Assembly: GCF_002222615.2 (NCBI RefSeq)
Contig: NZ_CP022412.2
Location: 992,001-1,056,000, forward strand
DNA length: 64,000 nucleotides
DNA from: Bacteroides caccae
GTDB taxonomy: Bacteria; Bacteroidota; Bacteroidia; Bacteroidales; Bacteroidaceae
Direction: 5' to 3'
The notes under the pieces were generated by a model. The model saw only the letters and a program-made list of their open reading frames with translations. It was not told where the DNA came from and did no database searches. A program made the position numbers and the translations under genes. Below are positions 29,946 through 42,054 of the stretch, one piece after another (positions within the stretch are counted from its first letter, which is position 1; each line of letters opens with the position of its first letter).

Positions 29946-32651
29946 ATGAAGCAGACAATAATGGGAATCGGATTAATAGTGGGAGTGTTAGTCGGTTTTG
30001 TCCCGAGTGTCGATGCTCAAACACAGAAGAAGCCGGTTGACATTGAAGCCTGCATGTCGTGGAAGCGTGTTGAATCGCCGGATATCTCCCCAACAGGACG
30101 TTGGGTTACCTACCGGATTGCACCTATGGAGTACAATCCTGAAAACACCGACGCAAAAACTGTACATCTGTTTGATACACGTACCCGCAAGGAGATTCTG
30201 CTGGATGATGTGGAAAACATTGAGTTTTATAATTCGGATCAAGCTCTTTCTTATCAGAAGGCTGACTCTACAGGAAATATGAAGACGATCCTGATGGAAC
30301 TTCCTTCAGGTATCAAGAAAGAATGGAAATATAAGGAATCTTTCCGGCCGGTAAATGGAACTCCTTATTCAGTCTCAGTGACAAACGTTCCGAAAGATAC
30401 GGTCAATCATGTCCCGTCTTTTAATCGTTTGGTGGTTCGTCATCTGAAAACCGGTACTGCTTTTCAGATTGATAGTATTGGCTATTATACCTTATACAAT
30501 GAAGGACGTTCTATCATTTTTGTACGCAGGCAGGCAAAAGGAAACGCATTGTGTTATGGCCCATTGACGGGACCCTATCAGACTATCTATCAGAGTGCTG
30601 TAAAGAAAGAACCTGTTTCTTTCAGTTTGGATACAAAACTGATGACAGGAGAATTCAGTATTAAGGATTCGCTATGGTATAATTTCTCTTTAAAGAAGAA
30701 TACCTGCGATTTGGTCTTCGACCGTAAAGAGGTGATTCTACCGGCAGGAATGGAACTTGCGCGGGCCACTCTGTCGCACAGTCAGAAGTTCCTGACAATG
30801 GAACTCAGACCTTATCAGGAGAAAGTAAATAAAGATAAAAAAGAAGAGGAAGTAAAGCCGGATAAGAGTTTCGAACTGGAGCTGTGGACTTGGGATGAAT
30901 ATGAAGTTCCTACGTTGCAGACTCGTGGTCGTTATTTCCGTCCTCAATATTCAAAATATATCTATGATATTGCTTCCGGAAAATTGACGGAAGTAGCTCC
31001 CGGTCATGCTGATTTGTTGGAACCGGACCGTGCAGAAGAAATACATTATGTGCTTTATACGGACGAAACTCCCTATCGTATGCAGAAAGAATGGCTTAAT
31101 GAAGTGCCGTTTGATATCTATTCTGTGAATGTGCATACAGGAAAAAAGCAATTGGTAGGACGTAGCTATCGGACAAGGCCGAAGTGGTCAATGAACGGTA
31201 AATGGGCTGTGATGTATGATCCTGTTGCACAGGTATGGAATAAGTTTGACGGAACAACGGGTAAGGTTACCGATATTTCAACAGCTATTGGTTATCCGGT
31301 ATTCGAGGAAACTTATGATAAACCGAATCCTGCGCCTGCCTATGGCATTGCAGGTTGGACTGCTGATGGTAATAATGTACTGATTTACGATGCTTATGAC
31401 TGGTGGAAGATAGATTTAACCGGAGAACGTCAGCCGGAATGTTTCACCAAGGGATATGGCCGCAAAAATAAGAGATCTATCCGTAAAATGACCAGCAATA
31501 TTGATAAGGAAGTTTTCAAACCGGACGAGACGGTTGTAGTCAGCGTGTGGGATGAGAATACGATGGATGAAGGCATTTATTCGCTTGACATGAAAGGTCG
31601 TTTGAAGAAGCTTGCGGAAGGTCCTTATATCTATGCGATTCATCGTTTCTCGGATAATCAGAAGTATTGCATCTGGAATCGTCAGAATATGTCAGAATTC
31701 CGTGATCTGTGGTGGAGCAAAGCCGATTTCTCCGATCCGATCCGTATAACGAATGCTAATCCTCAGCAAAGTGAATACAAATGGGGAACTGCAAAGTTGG
31801 TGGAATGGACAAACTATGAGAATAAACCCAATAAGGGAATACTTTATCTGCCGGAAGATTATGATCCTCAAAAAGAATATCCCGTACTGGTACAATTCTA
31901 TGAAACGCATTCAGGTGGATTGAATACTTATCATGCTCCGATGTTGAGCAGCGCAATGGGTGATGTGATGTATTTCGTCAGCAACGGATATATCGTATTC
32001 ATGCCGGATGTGCATTTCACTATAGGAACACCGGGACAGAGTTGTTATGATGCCGTAGTAAGCGGAACCAAATATTTGATAGAGCAGGGGATAGCACATC
32101 CGGGAAAGATAGGTCTGCAAGGACATAGCTGGTCGGGATTCCAAACCAGTTATCTGGTGACTAAAACTGATCTATTTACTTGTGCCAATATTGGTGCTCC
32201 TATCACTGATATGGTGACCGGTTATTTGGGCATTCGTGGTGGAAGCGGTTTACCGCGTTATTTCATGTACGAAGAATGGCAAAGCCGTATGGGAAAGAAT
32301 TTGTGGGAAGCCAAGGACAAATATCTGGCAAACTCCGCTATCATAGAGGCCGATAAAATACATACGCCGTTACTGATCTGGCATAATGACAAAGATGAGG
32401 CTGTGGCTTATGAACAGGGGCGTGCCTTGTATTTGGCTATGCGCCGTTTACAGCGTCCGGCATGGCATCTCAACTACAAAGGTGAAGGACATTTCCTTAG
32501 TAATCAGGCTGCCCAGAAGGACTGGACTATCCGGATGATGCAATTCTTCGACTATTACCTGAAAGGAACAAAAGAACCGCGTTGGATGAAAGAGGGTATT
32601 CATCTGAGAGAACGTGGCATTGACCAAAAATATGATTTACTAGAAAAATAA
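29946..32651 (+). CDS. S9 family prolyl oligopeptidase-like peptidase
   Basis: A 901-residue exported peptidase, longer and distant from the two S9 genes upstream. The frame is open from 29928, overlapping the previous gene, but the ATG at 29946 lies right after the preceding stop with AGGAG about 10 bases upstream and starts a signal peptide (MKQTIMGIGLIVGVLVGFVP). The propeller region includes a charged Lys/Glu stretch (KVNKDKKEEEVKPDKS). The hydrolase domain has the nucleophile Ser728 in LQGHSWSGFQTS, the acid in WHNDKDEAV and the base in GEGHFLS. The HSWSG motif places it with the long S9 peptidases of Bacteroidota. Confidence 0.92.
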   Translation: MKQTIMGIGLIVGVLVGFVPSVDAQTQKKPVDIEACMSWKRVESPDISPTGRWVTYRIAPMEYNPENTDAKTVHLFDTRTRKEILLDDVENIEFYNSDQALSYQKADSTGNMKTILMELPSGIKKEWKYKESFRPVNGTPYSVSVTNVPKDTVNHVPSFNRLVVRHLKTGTAFQIDSIGYYTLYNEGRSIIFVRRQAKGNALCYGPLTGPYQTIYQSAVKKEPVSFSLDTKLMTGEFSIKDSLWYNFSLKKNTCDLVFDRKEVILPAGMELARATLSHSQKFLTMELRPYQEKVNKDKKEEEVKPDKSFELELWTWDEYEVPTLQTRGRYFRPQYSKYIYDIASGKLTEVAPGHADLLEPDRAEEIHYVLYTDETPYRMQKEWLNEVPFDIYSVNVHTGKKQLVGRSYRTRPKWSMNGKWAVMYDPVAQVWNKFDGTTGKVTDISTAIGYPVFEETYDKPNPAPAYGIAGWTADGNNVLIYDAYDWWKIDLTGERQPECFTKGYGRKNKRSIRKMTSNIDKEVFKPDETVVVSVWDENTMDEGIYSLDMKGRLKKLAEGPYIYAIHRFSDNQKYCIWNRQNMSEFRDLWWSKADFSDPIRITNANPQQSEYKWGTAKLVEWTNYENKPNKGILYLPEDYDPQKEYPVLVQFYETHSGGLNTYHAPMLSSAMGDVMYFVSNGYIVFMPDVHFTIGTPGQSCYDAVVSGTKYLIEQGIAHPGKIGLQGHSWSGFQTSYLVTKTDLFTCANIGAPITDMVTGYLGIRGGSGLPRYFMYEEWQSRMGKNLWEAKDKYLANSAIIEADKIHTPLLIWHNDKDEAVAYEQGRALYLAMRRLQRPAWHLNYKGEGHFLSNQAAQKDWTIRMMQFFDYYLKGTKEPRWMKEGIHLRERGIDQKYDLLEK

Positions 32652-35209: not shown

Positions 35210-36241
35210 ATGGAACAGGAAGATTTTAACATACGCGAACATCAGCTTACTTCAAGGGAACGGGATTTTGAGAATGCACTCCGGCCGTTGAGTTTTGAGG
35301 ACTTTAGCGGACAGGATAAGGTGGTGGAAAACCTTCGCATCTTTGTGAAGGCGGCACGCTTGCGTGGCGAAGCACTCGACCATGTCCTGCTGCACGGACC
35401 TCCCGGATTGGGAAAAACAACGCTTTCAAATATCATTGCCAACGAGTTGGGAGTCGGCTTTAAGGTAACCTCCGGTCCGGTGCTCGATAAACCGGGAGAT
35501 TTGGCAGGTGTGCTGACCAGTCTCGAACCGAATGATGTACTCTTTATTGATGAAATTCATCGCTTGTCGCCCGTGGTGGAAGAATATCTTTATTCTGCCA
35601 TGGAAGACTATCGCATTGATATCATGATTGATAAAGGGCCTTCGGCACGTAGCATCCAGATAGATCTGAATCCTTTCACGCTGGTTGGCGCAACAACACG
35701 CAGCGGTCTGCTGACGGCACCGCTCCGTGCACGTTTCGGAATCAATCTGCATCTGGAATACTATGATGATGATATCTTGAGTAACATTATCCGTCGTTCC
35801 GCTTCCATATTGGATGTGCCTTGCTCGTTGCGTGCGGCAGGAGAGATTGCTTCCCGCAGCCGTGGGACGCCGCGTATTGCCAATGCCTTGCTCCGCCGGG
35901 TGCGCGACTTTGCACAGGTGAAGGGTTCCGGTTCTATTGACACGGAAATAGCCCAGTTTGCACTGGAGGCATTGAATATTGACAAGTACGGTCTGGATGA
36001 GATAGACAACAAGATACTTTGTACGATTATAGACAAGTTTAAGGGCGGTCCTGTGGGAATCACTACCATTGCTACGGCTTTGGGGGAAGATGCGGGGACG
36101 ATTGAGGAAGTTTACGAACCCTTCCTGATAAAAGAAGGATTCATGAAGCGTACTCCTCGCGGACGTGAGGTGACCGAACTTGCCTACAAACATTTGGGAA
36201 GAAGCCTTTATAACAGTCAGAAAACATTGTTTAACGACTGA
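35210..36241 (+). CDS. ruvB: Holliday junction branch migration ATPase RuvB
   Basis: A 343-residue AAA+ motor that drives branch migration with RuvA. Walker A is [13 protein letters not shown], Walker B is [10 protein letters not shown], sensor 1 is in LVGATTRSG, and the arginine region follows in [10 protein letters not shown]. The C-terminal winged helix ([33 protein letters not shown], in parts) binds DNA. The length equals the family norm. A DUF559 nuclease cassette follows within about 40 bases. Confidence 0.98.
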
Positions 36242-36279
36242 TAGTGGGCGGTACCATTTCACCGGAATTGATTAAAGTA

Positions 36280-36346
36280 AAAAGTCGGTAGTATCTCCAT
36301 TCTCCTCCTTCGGGAAGGAGGAGTACCCGTAGGGGGAGGTGGTAGG
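36280..36346 (+). repeat. Left inverted repeat of the DUF559 cassette
   Basis: This 67-bp arm is the exact reverse complement of 36741-36807. It holds a 9-bp hairpin (CTCCTCCTT at 36302-36310, CGGG loop, AAGGAGGAG at 36315-36323) followed by a G-rich tail that ends GGAGGTGGTAGG. Confidence 0.95.
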
Positions 36347-36368
36347 TGAATACATAAAACAATTATCT

Positions 36369-36809
36369 ATGCACGATATAATGAATAAGCCCGAACTAAA
36401 ATCCGTTCGAAAAGATCTAAGAAATATGAGTACTTCTGCCGAAGCCACTCTCTGGAAGTTAATCAAAGGGCAGCAAATAGATGGACTTAAGTTTCGTCGG
36501 CAGCATAGTGTCGGTCCTTATATTTTAGACTTTTATTGCCCGCAATTCCGGCTGGGGATAGAGTTGGACGGTGAAGTACATTCTACTACGGAAGCTATGG
36601 ATTATGCTGATAATCGTGCACGTTTTCTCGTCAATGAGAAAAATATTTGGGTAATACGTTTTGAGAATAGAGTCGTATTTGAGAATCCTACGCGGATTGT
36701 GGAGGAGATTCGGGAGGTTGTGAAAAAAAGGAGAGAAAATCCTACCACCTCCCCCTACGGGTACTCCTCCTTCCCGAAGGAGGAGAATGGAGATACTACC
36801 GACTTTTAA
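36369..36809 (+). CDS. DUF559 endonuclease-like protein (Vsr-like fold)
   Basis: A protein of 146 residues from the ATG at 36369; the frame is open back to a GTG at 36339 inside the left repeat. The DUF559 core is complete: STSAEATLWKLIKGQQIDGLKFRRQ, then GPYILDFYCPQFRLGIELDGEVH with the Asp and Glu expected for a PD-(D/E)XK-type site, then ARFLVNEKNIWVIRFENRVV. The family is related to the Vsr mismatch endonuclease but its role is unknown. The last 22 residues or so (from PTTSPYGYSSFPKEENG) are encoded by the right inverted repeat, and the stop codon begins on its last base. Confidence 0.88.
   Translation: MHDIMNKPELKSVRKDLRNMSTSAEATLWKLIKGQQIDGLKFRRQHSVGPYILDFYCPQFRLGIELDGEVHSTTEAMDYADNRARFLVNEKNIWVIRFENRVVFENPTRIVEEIREVVKKRRENPTTSPYGYSSFPKEENGDTTDF
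36741..36807 (-). repeat. Right inverted repeat of the DUF559 cassette
   Basis: A 67-bp perfect reverse complement of 36280-36346, with the same hairpin at 36764-36785. It doubles as coding sequence for the C-terminus of the nuclease. Confidence 0.95.
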
Positions 36810-36861
36810 TCAATTTTGGTGAAGGTAGTATTATAATATCATTAATCTGATAAAATAGAAC

Positions 36862-38358
36862 ATGGCTGGACTGAAATCATTAGCAAAAGATACTGCGATT
36901 TATGGATTGAGTAGTATTGTCGGTCGATTCCTCAATTATATGCTGGTACCGTTGTACACAGCAGTTTTACCGGCTTCTTCCGGAGGCTATGGAGTAGTAT
37001 CAAATGTCTATGCATTTACAGCTTTGATGCTCGTACTGCTCACGTTCGGTATGGAAACGGGTTTCTTCCGCTTTGCCAATAAATCAGGGGAAGATCCGAT
37101 GAAAGTGTATGCAAACTCTTTGCTTTCAGTAGGCGGGGTATCCTTGATTTTCGTCCTTCTCTGTCTACTGTTCCTGCAACCGATCGCCAATCTGCTGGAT
37201 TATGGCAATCATCCCGAGTTTATAGCGATGATGGCTATGGTGGTGGCTTTGGATTCTTTCCAGTGCATTCCTTTCGCCTACTTACGTTATAAGAAAAGAC
37301 CGATTAAGTTTGCGGCTATTAAATTGCTTTCCATTATCGGTGGAATTGGCTTGAATCTGTTCTTTCTGTTGCTCTGTCCGTGGCTGAATGTTCATTTTCC
37401 GGCAACGGTTTCCTGGTTTTATGATCCGGATTATCTGGTAGGTTATATTTTCATCAGCAATCTGATTATTTCGGCAGTGCAGATGTTCTTCTTTATTCCT
37501 GAATTGAGAGGCTTTGCTTATAAGTTGGACAAGGCACTGCTAAAACGAATGGTAGTATATTCTTTCCCGGTGTTGATTCTGGGGCTGGTCGGTATTCTGA
37601 ATCAGACGGTGGATAAGATGATTTATCCGTTTCTTTTCGAGGATCGTCAGGAAGGACTGGTCCAGTTGGGCATTTATGCGGCTACCAGTAAGATTGCTAT
37701 GGTAATGGCTATGTTTACGCAGGCTTTCCGTTATGCATACGAACCCTTTGTTTTTGGAAAAGACAGAGAAGGGGACAATCGTAAAATGTATGCGGCTGCA
37801 ATGAAATATTTCCTCATCTTCTCATTGTTGGCTTTCCTTGCCGTGATGTTCTATTTGGATTTGTTGCGCTATCTGGTGGCAAGAGGATATTGGGAAGGGT
37901 TGGGAGTAGTGGCTGTTGTGATGCTTGCAGAAATATGTAAGGGAATCTATTTCAATCTTTCCTTTTGGTATAAACTGACGGATGAAACACGTTGGGGGGC
38001 TTATTTCTCACTGATAGGATGTGCCATTATTGTGGTGATGAACATTGTGTTTGTGCCTGTGTATGGTTATATTGCTTCTGCGTGGGCTTCTGTTGCCGGA
38101 TATGGGGTGATTATGCTGTTGTCCTATTGGATGGGACAGAAGAAGTATCCGATTCAGTATGACTTGAAAAGTCTGGGACTTTATATCCTGCTTGCTGCGG
38201 TACTGTATGTGATCGGCGAACAAGTGCCGATTTCTGATCTTGTGCTCCGTCTGGCTTTCCGTACTGTGCTTTTATTGTTGTTTGTAGCATACATCGTCAA
38301 GAAAGATTTGCCGTTAAGTCAGCTACCTGTTATTAATCGATTTATAAAGAAGAAATAA
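36862..38358 (+). CDS. Polysaccharide/lipid-linked oligosaccharide flippase (MATE/Wzx-like)
   Basis: A 498-residue protein with about 14 membrane segments. The start LKSLAKDTAIYGLSSIVGRFLNYMLVPLYT is typical of the polysaccharide biosynthesis export family, as is the YGVVSNVYAF segment. It would move lipid-linked glycan units across the inner membrane. No glycosyltransferases flank it, so it is a stand-alone copy between ruvB and the DUF389 gene. The downstream gene starts three bases after its stop. Confidence 0.88.
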   Translation: MAGLKSLAKDTAIYGLSSIVGRFLNYMLVPLYTAVLPASSGGYGVVSNVYAFTALMLVLLTFGMETGFFRFANKSGEDPMKVYANSLLSVGGVSLIFVLLCLLFLQPIANLLDYGNHPEFIAMMAMVVALDSFQCIPFAYLRYKKRPIKFAAIKLLSIIGGIGLNLFFLLLCPWLNVHFPATVSWFYDPDYLVGYIFISNLIISAVQMFFFIPELRGFAYKLDKALLKRMVVYSFPVLILGLVGILNQTVDKMIYPFLFEDRQEGLVQLGIYAATSKIAMVMAMFTQAFRYAYEPFVFGKDREGDNRKMYAAAMKYFLIFSLLAFLAVMFYLDLLRYLVARGYWEGLGVVAVVMLAEICKGIYFNLSFWYKLTDETRWGAYFSLIGCAIIVVMNIVFVPVYGYIASAWASVAGYGVIMLLSYWMGQKKYPIQYDLKSLGLYILLAAVLYVIGEQVPISDLVLRLAFRTVLLLLFVAYIVKKDLPLSQLPVINRFIKKK

Positions 38359-39736: not shown

Positions 39737-41875
39737 ATGAAATTCAGACTGACCGCAGTTATTGTCCTTGCTCTTTGCTTGTCGAATGCTTTTGCCGATG
39801 AGGGAATGTGGCTATTGGGAAATCTTAAGAAGAATAAGCAAACAGACCGGGTAATGAGAGAACTTGGTTTGCAGATGCCTGTAAATAAATTATATAATCC
39901 GAAGAAGCCGTGTCTGGCGGATGCCGTTGTCAGTTTCGGTGGCTTTTGTTCGGGAGTAGTCGTATCGGAAGACGGGTTGGTGTTCACCAATCATCATTGC
40001 GGTTTCAGTAGTATCCAGCAGCATTCTTCGGTAGAACATGATTATCTGAAAGACGGTTTTGTGGCCCGTAGCCTCGAAGAAGAACTGCCGAATCCCGAGT
40101 TATATGTCCGTTTCCTGCTTCGTACGGAAAATGTGACCAAGCGGGTATTGTCTGCCGCCAAACACGCCAAGACGGAATCCGAGCGGCGGGTGGTAGTCGA
40201 TTCTGTGATGAATGTAATCGGGATGGAAGTATCGGAAAAGGACTCCACGTTGACGGGTATTGTTGACGCCTACTATGCGGGAAATGAGTTCTGGCTGTCT
40301 GTTTACCGTGATTATAATGATGTCCGCCTGGTATTTGCTCCCCCTTCCTCTGTCGGTAAGTTCGGGTGGGATACGGACAACTGGATGTGGCCGCGTCATA
40401 CGGGCGATTTCAGCGTATTCCGTATCTATGCGAACACTCAGAACGGTCCGGCGGATTATTCTTCGGACAATGTGCCCTATCATCCCGAATATGTAGCTCC
40501 TGTCTCTTTGGAAGGATATAAGGAAGGCTCTTTCTGTATGACGCTCGGTTATCCGGGGAGTACGGAGCGTTATCTCTCTTCGTATGGCATCGAGGAGATG
40601 ATGAACGGCATCAATCAGGCTATGATTGACGTGCGTGGAGTGAAACAGGCTATCTGGAAGCGGGAAATGGACCGTCGTCCGGACATCCGTATCAAGTATG
40701 CCTCAAAGTACGATGAAAGCTCTAATTACTGGAAGAATAGTATCGGAACCAATAAAGCGATCCAACACCTGAAAGTGCTGGAAAAGAAACGTGCTGCCGA
40801 GGCTGCACTGCGCGAATGGATTCAGGCGCATCCCGAAGAAAGGGAGAAACTTATTCGTTTATTCTCTTCCCTGGAGCTGAATTATGGCAATCGTCGTGAG
40901 ATAAACCGTGCCTTGGCTTATTTCGGTGAAGCATTTATCAATGGTCCTGAATTGGTTCAGCTTGCGCTTGAAATTCTGAACTTCGACTTTGAGGCGGAAG
41001 AAAAGCAAGTGGTAAGCCGTATGAAGAAGCTGTTGGAAAAGTATGACAACCTGGATACTGCCATTGACAAGGAAGTCTTTGCCGCCATGCTGAAAGAGTA
41101 TCAAACGAAAGTGGACAAGAAATATCTTCCCGCTATGTACGATAAGATCGACACGCTCTATAACGGGAATATCCAAGCCTATGTAGACTCCTTGTATGCA
41201 ACATCCAATATAACCTCGCCTAAAGGTTTGAAACGCTTTCTGGAACGGGATACGACGTATAATCTGATTGAAGACCCTGCCGTATCTTTGAGTCTTGACC
41301 TGATTGTGAAATATTATGAGATGAACCAGAGTATTTCCGAAGCTTCCGAGCAGATCGAACAGGGAGAGCGCTTATTCAATGATGCCATGCGCCGTATGTA
41401 TGCCGACCGTAATTTCTATCCCGACGCCAATTCGACCATGCGGCTTAGTTTCGGGACGGTCAGTGGTTATTCTCCTTTCGACGGGGCTACTTACGGCTAT
41501 TATACAACAGTGAAAGGTATCTTTGAGAAGGTAAAAGAGCATGCCGGAGACATTGACTTTGCCGTGCAGCCGGAACTCTTGTCTTTATTATCTTCCCGCG
41601 ACTTCGGCAGGTATGCCAACGAACAGGGAGATATGAATGTCTGCTTTATCTCCAACAATGATATAACAGGAGGAAACTCCGGCAGTGCCATGTTCAACGG
41701 TAAGGGAGAGTTGCTCGGTCTGGCGTTTGACGGCAATTGGGAAGCCATGAGCAGTGATATTGTATTTGAACCCGATTTACAACGATGTATCGGTGTGGAT
41801 GTGCGTTATATGCTCTTTATTATCGAGAAATACGGGAAAGCGGGGAATCTGATAAAAGAATTAAAAATAAGGTGA
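39737..41875 (+). CDS. S46 family dipeptidyl-peptidase, DPP7 type
   Basis: A 712-residue exported chymotrypsin-fold peptidase with a signal peptide (VIVLALCLSNAFA). The catalytic His lies in FTNHHCGF (residues 86-87) and the nucleophile Ser648 in TGGNSGSAMF; the Asp is likely in the NDVRLVF segment. The helical cap domain lies between. The substrate pocket reads FDGNWE with Gly666. In this family Gly at that position marks DPP7 (hydrophobic P1 residues), while Arg (FDRNWE) marks DPP11 (Asp/Glu). The protein therefore should release dipeptides from hydrophobic-type peptides in the periplasm. It may use peptides supplied by loci such as the one at 15716-33079. Confidence 0.93.
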   Translation: MKFRLTAVIVLALCLSNAFADEGMWLLGNLKKNKQTDRVMRELGLQMPVNKLYNPKKPCLADAVVSFGGFCSGVVVSEDGLVFTNHHCGFSSIQQHSSVEHDYLKDGFVARSLEEELPNPELYVRFLLRTENVTKRVLSAAKHAKTESERRVVVDSVMNVIGMEVSEKDSTLTGIVDAYYAGNEFWLSVYRDYNDVRLVFAPPSSVGKFGWDTDNWMWPRHTGDFSVFRIYANTQNGPADYSSDNVPYHPEYVAPVSLEGYKEGSFCMTLGYPGSTERYLSSYGIEEMMNGINQAMIDVRGVKQAIWKREMDRRPDIRIKYASKYDESSNYWKNSIGTNKAIQHLKVLEKKRAAEAALREWIQAHPEEREKLIRLFSSLELNYGNRREINRALAYFGEAFINGPELVQLALEILNFDFEAEEKQVVSRMKKLLEKYDNLDTAIDKEVFAAMLKEYQTKVDKKYLPAMYDKIDTLYNGNIQAYVDSLYATSNITSPKGLKRFLERDTTYNLIEDPAVSLSLDLIVKYYEMNQSISEASEQIEQGERLFNDAMRRMYADRNFYPDANSTMRLSFGTVSGYSPFDGATYGYYTTVKGIFEKVKEHAGDIDFAVQPELLSLLSSRDFGRYANEQGDMNVCFISNNDITGGNSGSAMFNGKGELLGLAFDGNWEAMSSDIVFEPDLQRCIGVDVRYMLFIIEKYGKAGNLIKELKIR

Positions 41876-41896
41876 GTTTGATATAACTTCATTCTC

Positions 41897-41931
41897 ATGC
41901 TTCTCTTTCCTTTCCAAAGGAAGGGAAGCAT
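41897..41931 (+). terminator. Possible terminator hairpin after the S46 peptidase
   Basis: ATGCTTC and TTTCCTTT (41897-41913) face AAAGGAA and GGGAAGCAT with a small mismatch in the stem. There is no strong T tract, so termination is uncertain; it may also act for the convergent helicase gene. Confidence 0.4.
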
Positions 41932-42054
41932 AATCATTAAGTTTATATTGAACTCACCTTATAAAAGGTTATATAAACGTTTTTGGTACAACTTTTTTAA
42001 AGAAGTAACCATTCCCTCAAAAGGGGAATTCTATGGTTTTTGCTTTGAAAGTTT

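Follow-up and report, generated by a model that had tools for sequence, protein, structure and literature searches.

A DUF559 nuclease gene between hairpin repeats in Bacteroides caccae: a candidate mobile system without a transposase

Introduction

What is a small nuclease gene doing between two perfect inverted copies of a 67-bp sequence if no transposase accompanies it? This question is raised by a cassette in Bacteroides caccae (RefSeq assembly GCF_002222615.2) that lies within a 64,000-nt stretch of contig NZ_CP022412.2 (positions 992,001 to 1,056,000); we analyzed the whole stretch and call it the window. The gene encodes a member of DUF559, which Pfam lists as a common family of unknown function. 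We believe, with a probability of about 0.6, that the cassette represents one copy of a mobile system that is widespread, lacks a transposase, and consists of a free-standing nuclease of the Vsr/EDxHD type (DUF559) and terminal units, each a hairpin plus a short tag. This view rests on sequence comparisons, in which gene and units appear together across phyla; units appear in multiple, genome-specific copies; gene-less elements vary between sister genomes; and full, scar, and empty forms are found at one orthologous position in valyl-tRNA synthetase (ValRS).

The cassette

A repeat search placed the arms at 36280..36346 (+ strand) and 36741..36807 (- strand): they are 67 nt each, are 100% complementary as inverted copies, and have 394 nt between them. 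An outer, imperfect inverted pair (19 nt, 89%) lies at 36258..36276 (+) and 36805..36823 (-), which agrees with an earlier suggestion that the arms extend imperfectly to about 90 bp. Just one open reading frame (ORF) was identified between the arms, and it belongs to DUF559 (PF04480, E = 1.8e-26 in a Pfam search). The layout in the original prediction, with two identical arms around one small nuclease gene and no transposase, was therefore correct. A chance inverted repeat is ruled out by the perfect 67-nt arms and by a search with an 18-base piece of the arm (up to 3 mismatches), which gave 2 matches in the window versus 0.01 expected by shuffling.

Besides being half of a large inverted repeat, each arm is a unit with its own small hairpin and a GGTGGT tag on the gene side. 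The left hairpin (36302..36323, +) has a 9-bp stem, CTCCTCCTT-CGGG-AAGGAGGAG, as given by strand folding and checked against the letters. Its tag is at 36338..36343 (+), from a pattern match over positions 36304-36343 of the window (G000:C1:1028304-1028343). The right unit is the mirror of the left, with its hairpin at 36764..36785 (-) and its tag at 36744..36749 (-), where the + strand reads ACCACC (repeat search, letters checked). The folding of a single arm is modest (z = -2.8 relative to shuffles). The ORF (36339..36809, +; from the ORF list, Pfam, and structure comparison) has 156 amino acids if translated from GTG 36339, with ATG 36369 or 36381 as a likelier start and a stop at 36807-36809. 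The right arm encodes its C-terminal residues, and disorder is predicted for residues 141-156; overall, the protein has about 130 residues plus the disordered tail.

Gene-less copies of the arms

The original prediction had named arms that occur nowhere else as a reason to abandon the idea. Instead, a 106-base query from the left arm has 67 matches in the 4.57-Mb genome, which correspond to the cassette and at least 38 other sites. (The 38 are a lower bound: 40 of 64 candidates were scored, and a search with the core of the arm found a weaker extra site at 2889906.) These sites rule out that the arms are unique to this locus. The best 30 matches, including the cassette's own two, are 88-100% identical over 60-106 bases, and the 24-base core has 39 matches in the genome with up to 3 mismatches, while its reversed control has none. 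Of the 38 gene-less sites, 22 are non-overlapping pairs on opposite strands, 3 have overlapping matches only, and 13 are single; 37 lie outside ORFs of 150 or more amino acids. A typical gene-less pair (L012) folds into one long hairpin (z = -10 relative to shuffles). Many of the copies are enclosed by longer terminal inverted repeats (TIRs) of at least three kinds: TIR1 and TIR2 are mostly found in another genome (G192), and TIR3 surrounds many copies in our own genome. By eye, gene-less copies mostly join two different arm types, whereas the cassette joins two of one type. Because of this difference, the perfect arms of the cassette may reflect homogenization rather than recent movement.

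Association of gene and units across genomes

We scanned genome contigs for relatives and obtained 79 DUF559 loci from the best 80 of at least 520 relatives. These belong to Bacteroidota, Desulfuromonadales/Geobacteraceae, Nitrospirae, Nitrospinota, Acidobacteria, Akkermansiaceae, Marinimicrobia, and others. Units were scored as matches to CCTCCT-N2-10-AGGAGG-N2-30-GGTGGT within 400 bp of the gene; this pattern picks up just one flavor of unit, and it was chosen after these loci had been inspected, so the counts on them are not independent. By this measure, 46 of the 79 loci have a unit near DUF559 and 25 have one on both sides, as compared to 4 and 1 of 250 other small ORFs from the same loci. 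The density of matches is 1.19 per kb near DUF559 versus 0.019 elsewhere, and the reversed pattern has no matches.

Long inverted arms are less general. An inverted-repeat score of at least 20 was reached by 17 of 30 family loci, by 16 of the 29 genus loci besides our own (windows were misplaced on short contigs for two loci of the family set and six of the genus set; the null for the family set was inflated by related loci, with a maximum of 507), and by 17 of 78 multi-phylum loci versus 5 of 790 control windows. Outside the family, the long-arm score is a weak general test, and the hairpin-plus-tag unit does better.

The spacers between hairpin and tag also seem to be structured. There are 81 distinct spacers in the 79 loci, and 56 of these have at least 12 bases. 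A second stem of 7 or more is present in 12 of the 56 (0.14% in mononucleotide shuffles) and a stem of 4 or more in 40 (21% in shuffles), and this pairing is kept across many different sequences. Units also tend to be most like others of their own genome: of 75 distinct units from ten genomes chosen by hand, 58 had their nearest neighbor there, and the difference between units within minus between genomes was 0.155 (shuffle maximum, 0.036). One locus (L183) has twelve matches to the pattern, on both strands, within 400 bp of its gene, and so is an array rather than a pair. In another genome, two copies of DUF559 that match equally well in score and identity (G186:C11:29981-30337 and 30615-30971) are separated by about 280 bp, perhaps as a tandem duplication.

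A nearly independent test is given by 296 Bacteroidota genomes, including our own, of which 46 contain the unit, 170 contain DUF559, and 126 contain a strong DUF559 match (E of 1e-15 or better). Strong matches were found in 19 of the 20 genomes with at least 5 units (p = 4.9e-7), in all 11 genomes with at least 10 units, and in 37 of the 46 genomes with any unit; 5 of the other 9 have a single match to the unit. The 107 genomes with strong DUF559 and fewer than 5 matches carry little weight either way, given that the pattern represents one flavor of unit. Among the matches listed, we saw by reading that units adjoin DUF559 in seven genomes (G368, G388, G498, G575, G470, G446, and G555). Similarly, in a sample from the genus, the hairpin element was present in 19 of 24 genomes with a free-standing DUF559 (an open frame of at most 220 amino acids) versus 33 of 125 others (p = 1.7e-6). 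Genomes whose only DUF559 is in frame within another gene showed no link (3 of 9).

In-frame cassettes in protein-coding genes

Some relatives of the cassette are inside protein-coding genes. In L107, a ValRS, the match to PDB 1gax (residues 1-204 and 204-424) is broken by an insert of about 141 residues, which is DUF559 with both arms translated; the units form the ends of this cassette. Farther along the same protein (residues 608-618 of the ORF that starts at 784) there is one more arm peptide in frame, which implies that units without the gene are read in frame as well. The leucyl-tRNA synthetase (LeuRS) L110 has its insertion between residues 237 and 238 of PDB 1h3n, which we judge to be a comparable position within the editing region. 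Five loci have a SpoIID protein that is interrupted in the same region (L056, L074, L108, L109, and L112; identified by Pfam in three of the five), and in L052 and L061 the cassette is read in frame just ahead of the start of LeuB (checked for L061). A Pfam search (1e-5) found no intein domain in eight in-frame relatives. DUF559 is also in frame inside genes for Type ISP and N6/N4 DNA methyltransferases (L236 and L237), apparently with several translated hairpin units.

Among the best 120 homologues at the ValRS site, 24 have the cassette, 5 have a short scar with arm sequence only (P0145, P0167, P0174, P0175, and P0187), and 91 have neither; of these 91, 83 have a 14-residue gap and 8 have an unrelated 31-residue gap. 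Four proteins without the cassette (P0132-P0135) are nonetheless 98.3-99.1% identical to one that has it (P0121), and their linker at the site is short and outgroup-like. An element that comes and goes should leave just such a mixture of full, scar, and empty forms at a single site.

Gain and loss of gene-less elements

Gene-less elements also vary between close relatives. Of 19 queries with flanking sequence, 15 had matches, and 14 pairs of sites were compared. Three pairs from G192 and its sister genome G159, with flanks that are over 94% identical, have the element in one genome only: 234 versus 0 bp (L245/L286), 214 versus 5 bp (L246/L289), and 208 versus 7 bp (L240/L291). Together with the empty ValRS alleles, these show that relatives have empty sites. 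Elsewhere, the element is common to both genomes (L252), its core is shrunken in the other genome (L239), or the other genome lacks the unit and the spacer differs as well (L249, L244, L242, and L251).

Comparison with known systems

Structure comparison, in which matches to 3hrl, 3r3p, and Vsr were followed, indicates that the fold of DUF559 resembles both the homing endonuclease I-Bth0305I and Vsr, and the Vsr-like EDxHD catalytic core is present. DUF559 is named as EDxHD in PMC9403480. The cassette is like EDxHD homing endonucleases in this core and in that a single site can be either filled or empty (the ValRS relatives), so on fold and allele states it would qualify as one. The window's gene is free-standing. 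The cassette differs in that we saw no intron or intein and in that it ends in hairpin units that themselves exist in dozens of gene-less copies. Also, I-Bth0305I carries extra DNA-binding regions (PMC3943268), whereas our protein consists of about 130 residues and the disordered tail. To our knowledge, association with hairpins is not a trait of Vsr.

The layout is closest to that of REP-associated tyrosine transposases (RAYTs, or TnpA-REP; REP, repetitive extragenic palindrome) and their hairpin-forming REP doublets (REPINs), together known as REPtrons. As described in PMC3733652, these share with our system the short tagged hairpins, which are repeated many times, mostly between genes and frequently in inverted pairs, and an enzyme gene flanked by the same units (as in the window and at many of the loci counted above). 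However, in place of an HUH Y1 transposase our system has a Vsr-type (PD-(D/E)XK-like) nuclease, and its tag is GGTGGT rather than GTAG; by its enzyme, it falls outside RAYT/REPIN. A RAYT elsewhere in the genome is ruled out as the driver: the Y1 transposase domain (PF01797) had no match in our genome, while the same search was positive in 5 of 14 control genomes. The original prediction had tied the nuclease to its own hairpins in the manner of REP transposases. The layout part holds, with units that flank the gene and a gene-less family; that the nuclease spreads them is our inference.

Other comparisons are partial. Rickettsia palindromic elements are palindromes inserted in frame in protein-coding genes, as are the inserts in ValRS, LeuRS, and SpoIID in relatives; but our insert can carry its own nuclease gene, and the window's copy is intergenic. 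As in miniature inverted-repeat transposable elements (MITEs), many of our gene-less copies have inverted terminal repeats on either side, but here the core is constant while the terminal repeats vary. Unlike an insertion sequence (IS), the cassette encodes no transposase. Our literature search, which had limited reach (few subscription journals), found no paper linking DUF559 to hairpin repeats.

Interpretation

Our best reading of these sequences is of a system that would be RAYT/REPIN-like in layout and homing-like in behavior, with a Vsr-type nuclease whose part in movement is putative. The pairing of gene and hairpins in many bacteria, sometimes in frame in essential genes, suggests an undescribed kind of mobile element. 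The nuclease would recognize the unit and cut at or near it, and repair of the break would then fill the cut with a copied pair of units that may or may not include the gene; gene-less pairs would be the non-autonomous form. In this genome, the gene copy is probably old and vertically held beside ruvB, while the hairpins would spread.

That history is suggested by the neighbors of the cassette, which are ruvB upstream (35210..36241, +) and a polysaccharide flippase-like gene downstream (36862..38358, +). DUF559 is present at the same junction in 5 of the 8 other loci from the genus that we inspected (G159, G192, G237, G204, and G157), and because of this the window's copy is probably old. RAYT genes, too, tend to be old. 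The junction lacks DUF559, with a short spacer or another ORF there, in G162, G171, G151, G164, G167, and more. The recent activity suggested in the original prediction is thus not supported for this copy. Recent homing into the ruvB junction is likewise not favored, given that five of the eight other junctions hold the gene, one of them without enclosing arms. In G162, G171, and G151 (L143, L144, and L145), an unrelated ORF, hydrolase-like by eye, replaces the cassette.

Several observations count against the mobile system that we propose. The probable vertical inheritance of the window's copy is one of them, and at the G157 junction the gene has no enclosing arms and adjoins a gene-less hairpin pair. 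Our genome has a single DUF559 gene for at least 38 gene-less sites. With our pattern, 33 of the 79 DUF559 loci have no unit within 400 bp; G312 is a clear exception in Bacteroidota, with 7 units and no match to DUF559; and in the genus sample a free-standing gene is missing from 33 of the 52 genomes that bear hairpins, which implies that hairpins often outlive or lack it. Presence or absence was clean in just 3 of the 14 pairs, with five (L250, L264, L265, L238, and L257) giving no clear call, and no clear target-site duplication was seen in the compared pairs. Finally, the longer terminal repeats around many gene-less copies mean that an IS transposase could move them.

This last point is the main support for a different account, in which the hairpins are passengers inside IS-moved miniature elements and DUF559 was caught between two of them or guards the host against palindromes. 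The 234-bp indel at L245/L286 takes in MITE-like TIR1 ends, and such ends also exist around a reduced core (window 41869-41960; L264 and L265). Yet the terminal repeats vary from copy to copy while the association of core and DUF559 stays, the same type of core accompanies DUF559 in other phyla, and the ValRS cassette of L107 has the units as its ends, so we consider this account unlikely. We are a little less skeptical of an ordinary homing endonuclease, which overlaps with our explanation and which we still regard as rather doubtful: DUF559 would home only to fixed sites such as ValRS and the ruvB junction, and the hairpins would be its target or border, dispersed by some other cause. The filled ValRS alleles beside 98-99%-identical empty ones, the shared SpoIID region, the fold match to I-Bth0305I, and the naming of DUF559 as EDxHD in PMC9403480 all fit. 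A single-site homer does not explain why DUF559 and the dispersed units are co-distributed over 296 genomes, nor why the units vary between genomes. Lastly, the hairpins might be terminators or regulatory stems around a defense nuclease, with the dispersed copies as unrelated look-alikes. The stems are GC-rich and mostly intergenic, and PADLOC gave a weak match to a methyl-directed restriction enzyme (E = 4e-6), but this view is already hard to hold and seems very improbable given the near-identity of the best genome matches, the inverted pairing of the units, the in-frame coding copies in ValRS and LeuRS, and the rarity of units near other small ORFs.

A stronger form of the proposal is that DUF559 and its hairpin units make up a single, very widespread class of mobile elements, free of both transposases and splicing: the nuclease would cut the units, repair would copy them with or without the gene, and ends that can be read in frame would let the element survive in essential genes such as those for aminoacyl-tRNA synthetases. 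We put this forward tentatively, at slightly worse than even odds. If it is correct, then RAYT/REPIN would have a counterpart driven by a nuclease, and a driverless class of bacterial palindromic repeats would gain a driver. Some families of these have no known mobilizer, such as the CGTC REPs (PMC3733652). Even on the narrower premise that the pairing is causal, it bears on the function of DUF559 and on such repeats, and a small protein and a hairpin oligonucleotide would be enough to test the question. The cassettes read in frame in ValRS and LeuRS matter in their own right: nuclease domains persist inside essential enzymes and, for ValRS, beside near-identical empty alleles.

Another palindromic element in the window

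At 41869-41960, the window contains a short palindrome in which a CTTTCC-GGAAGG hairpin is bordered by TIR2-like terminal repeats. Repeats of this kind enclose hairpin cores of the DUF559 type in G192.
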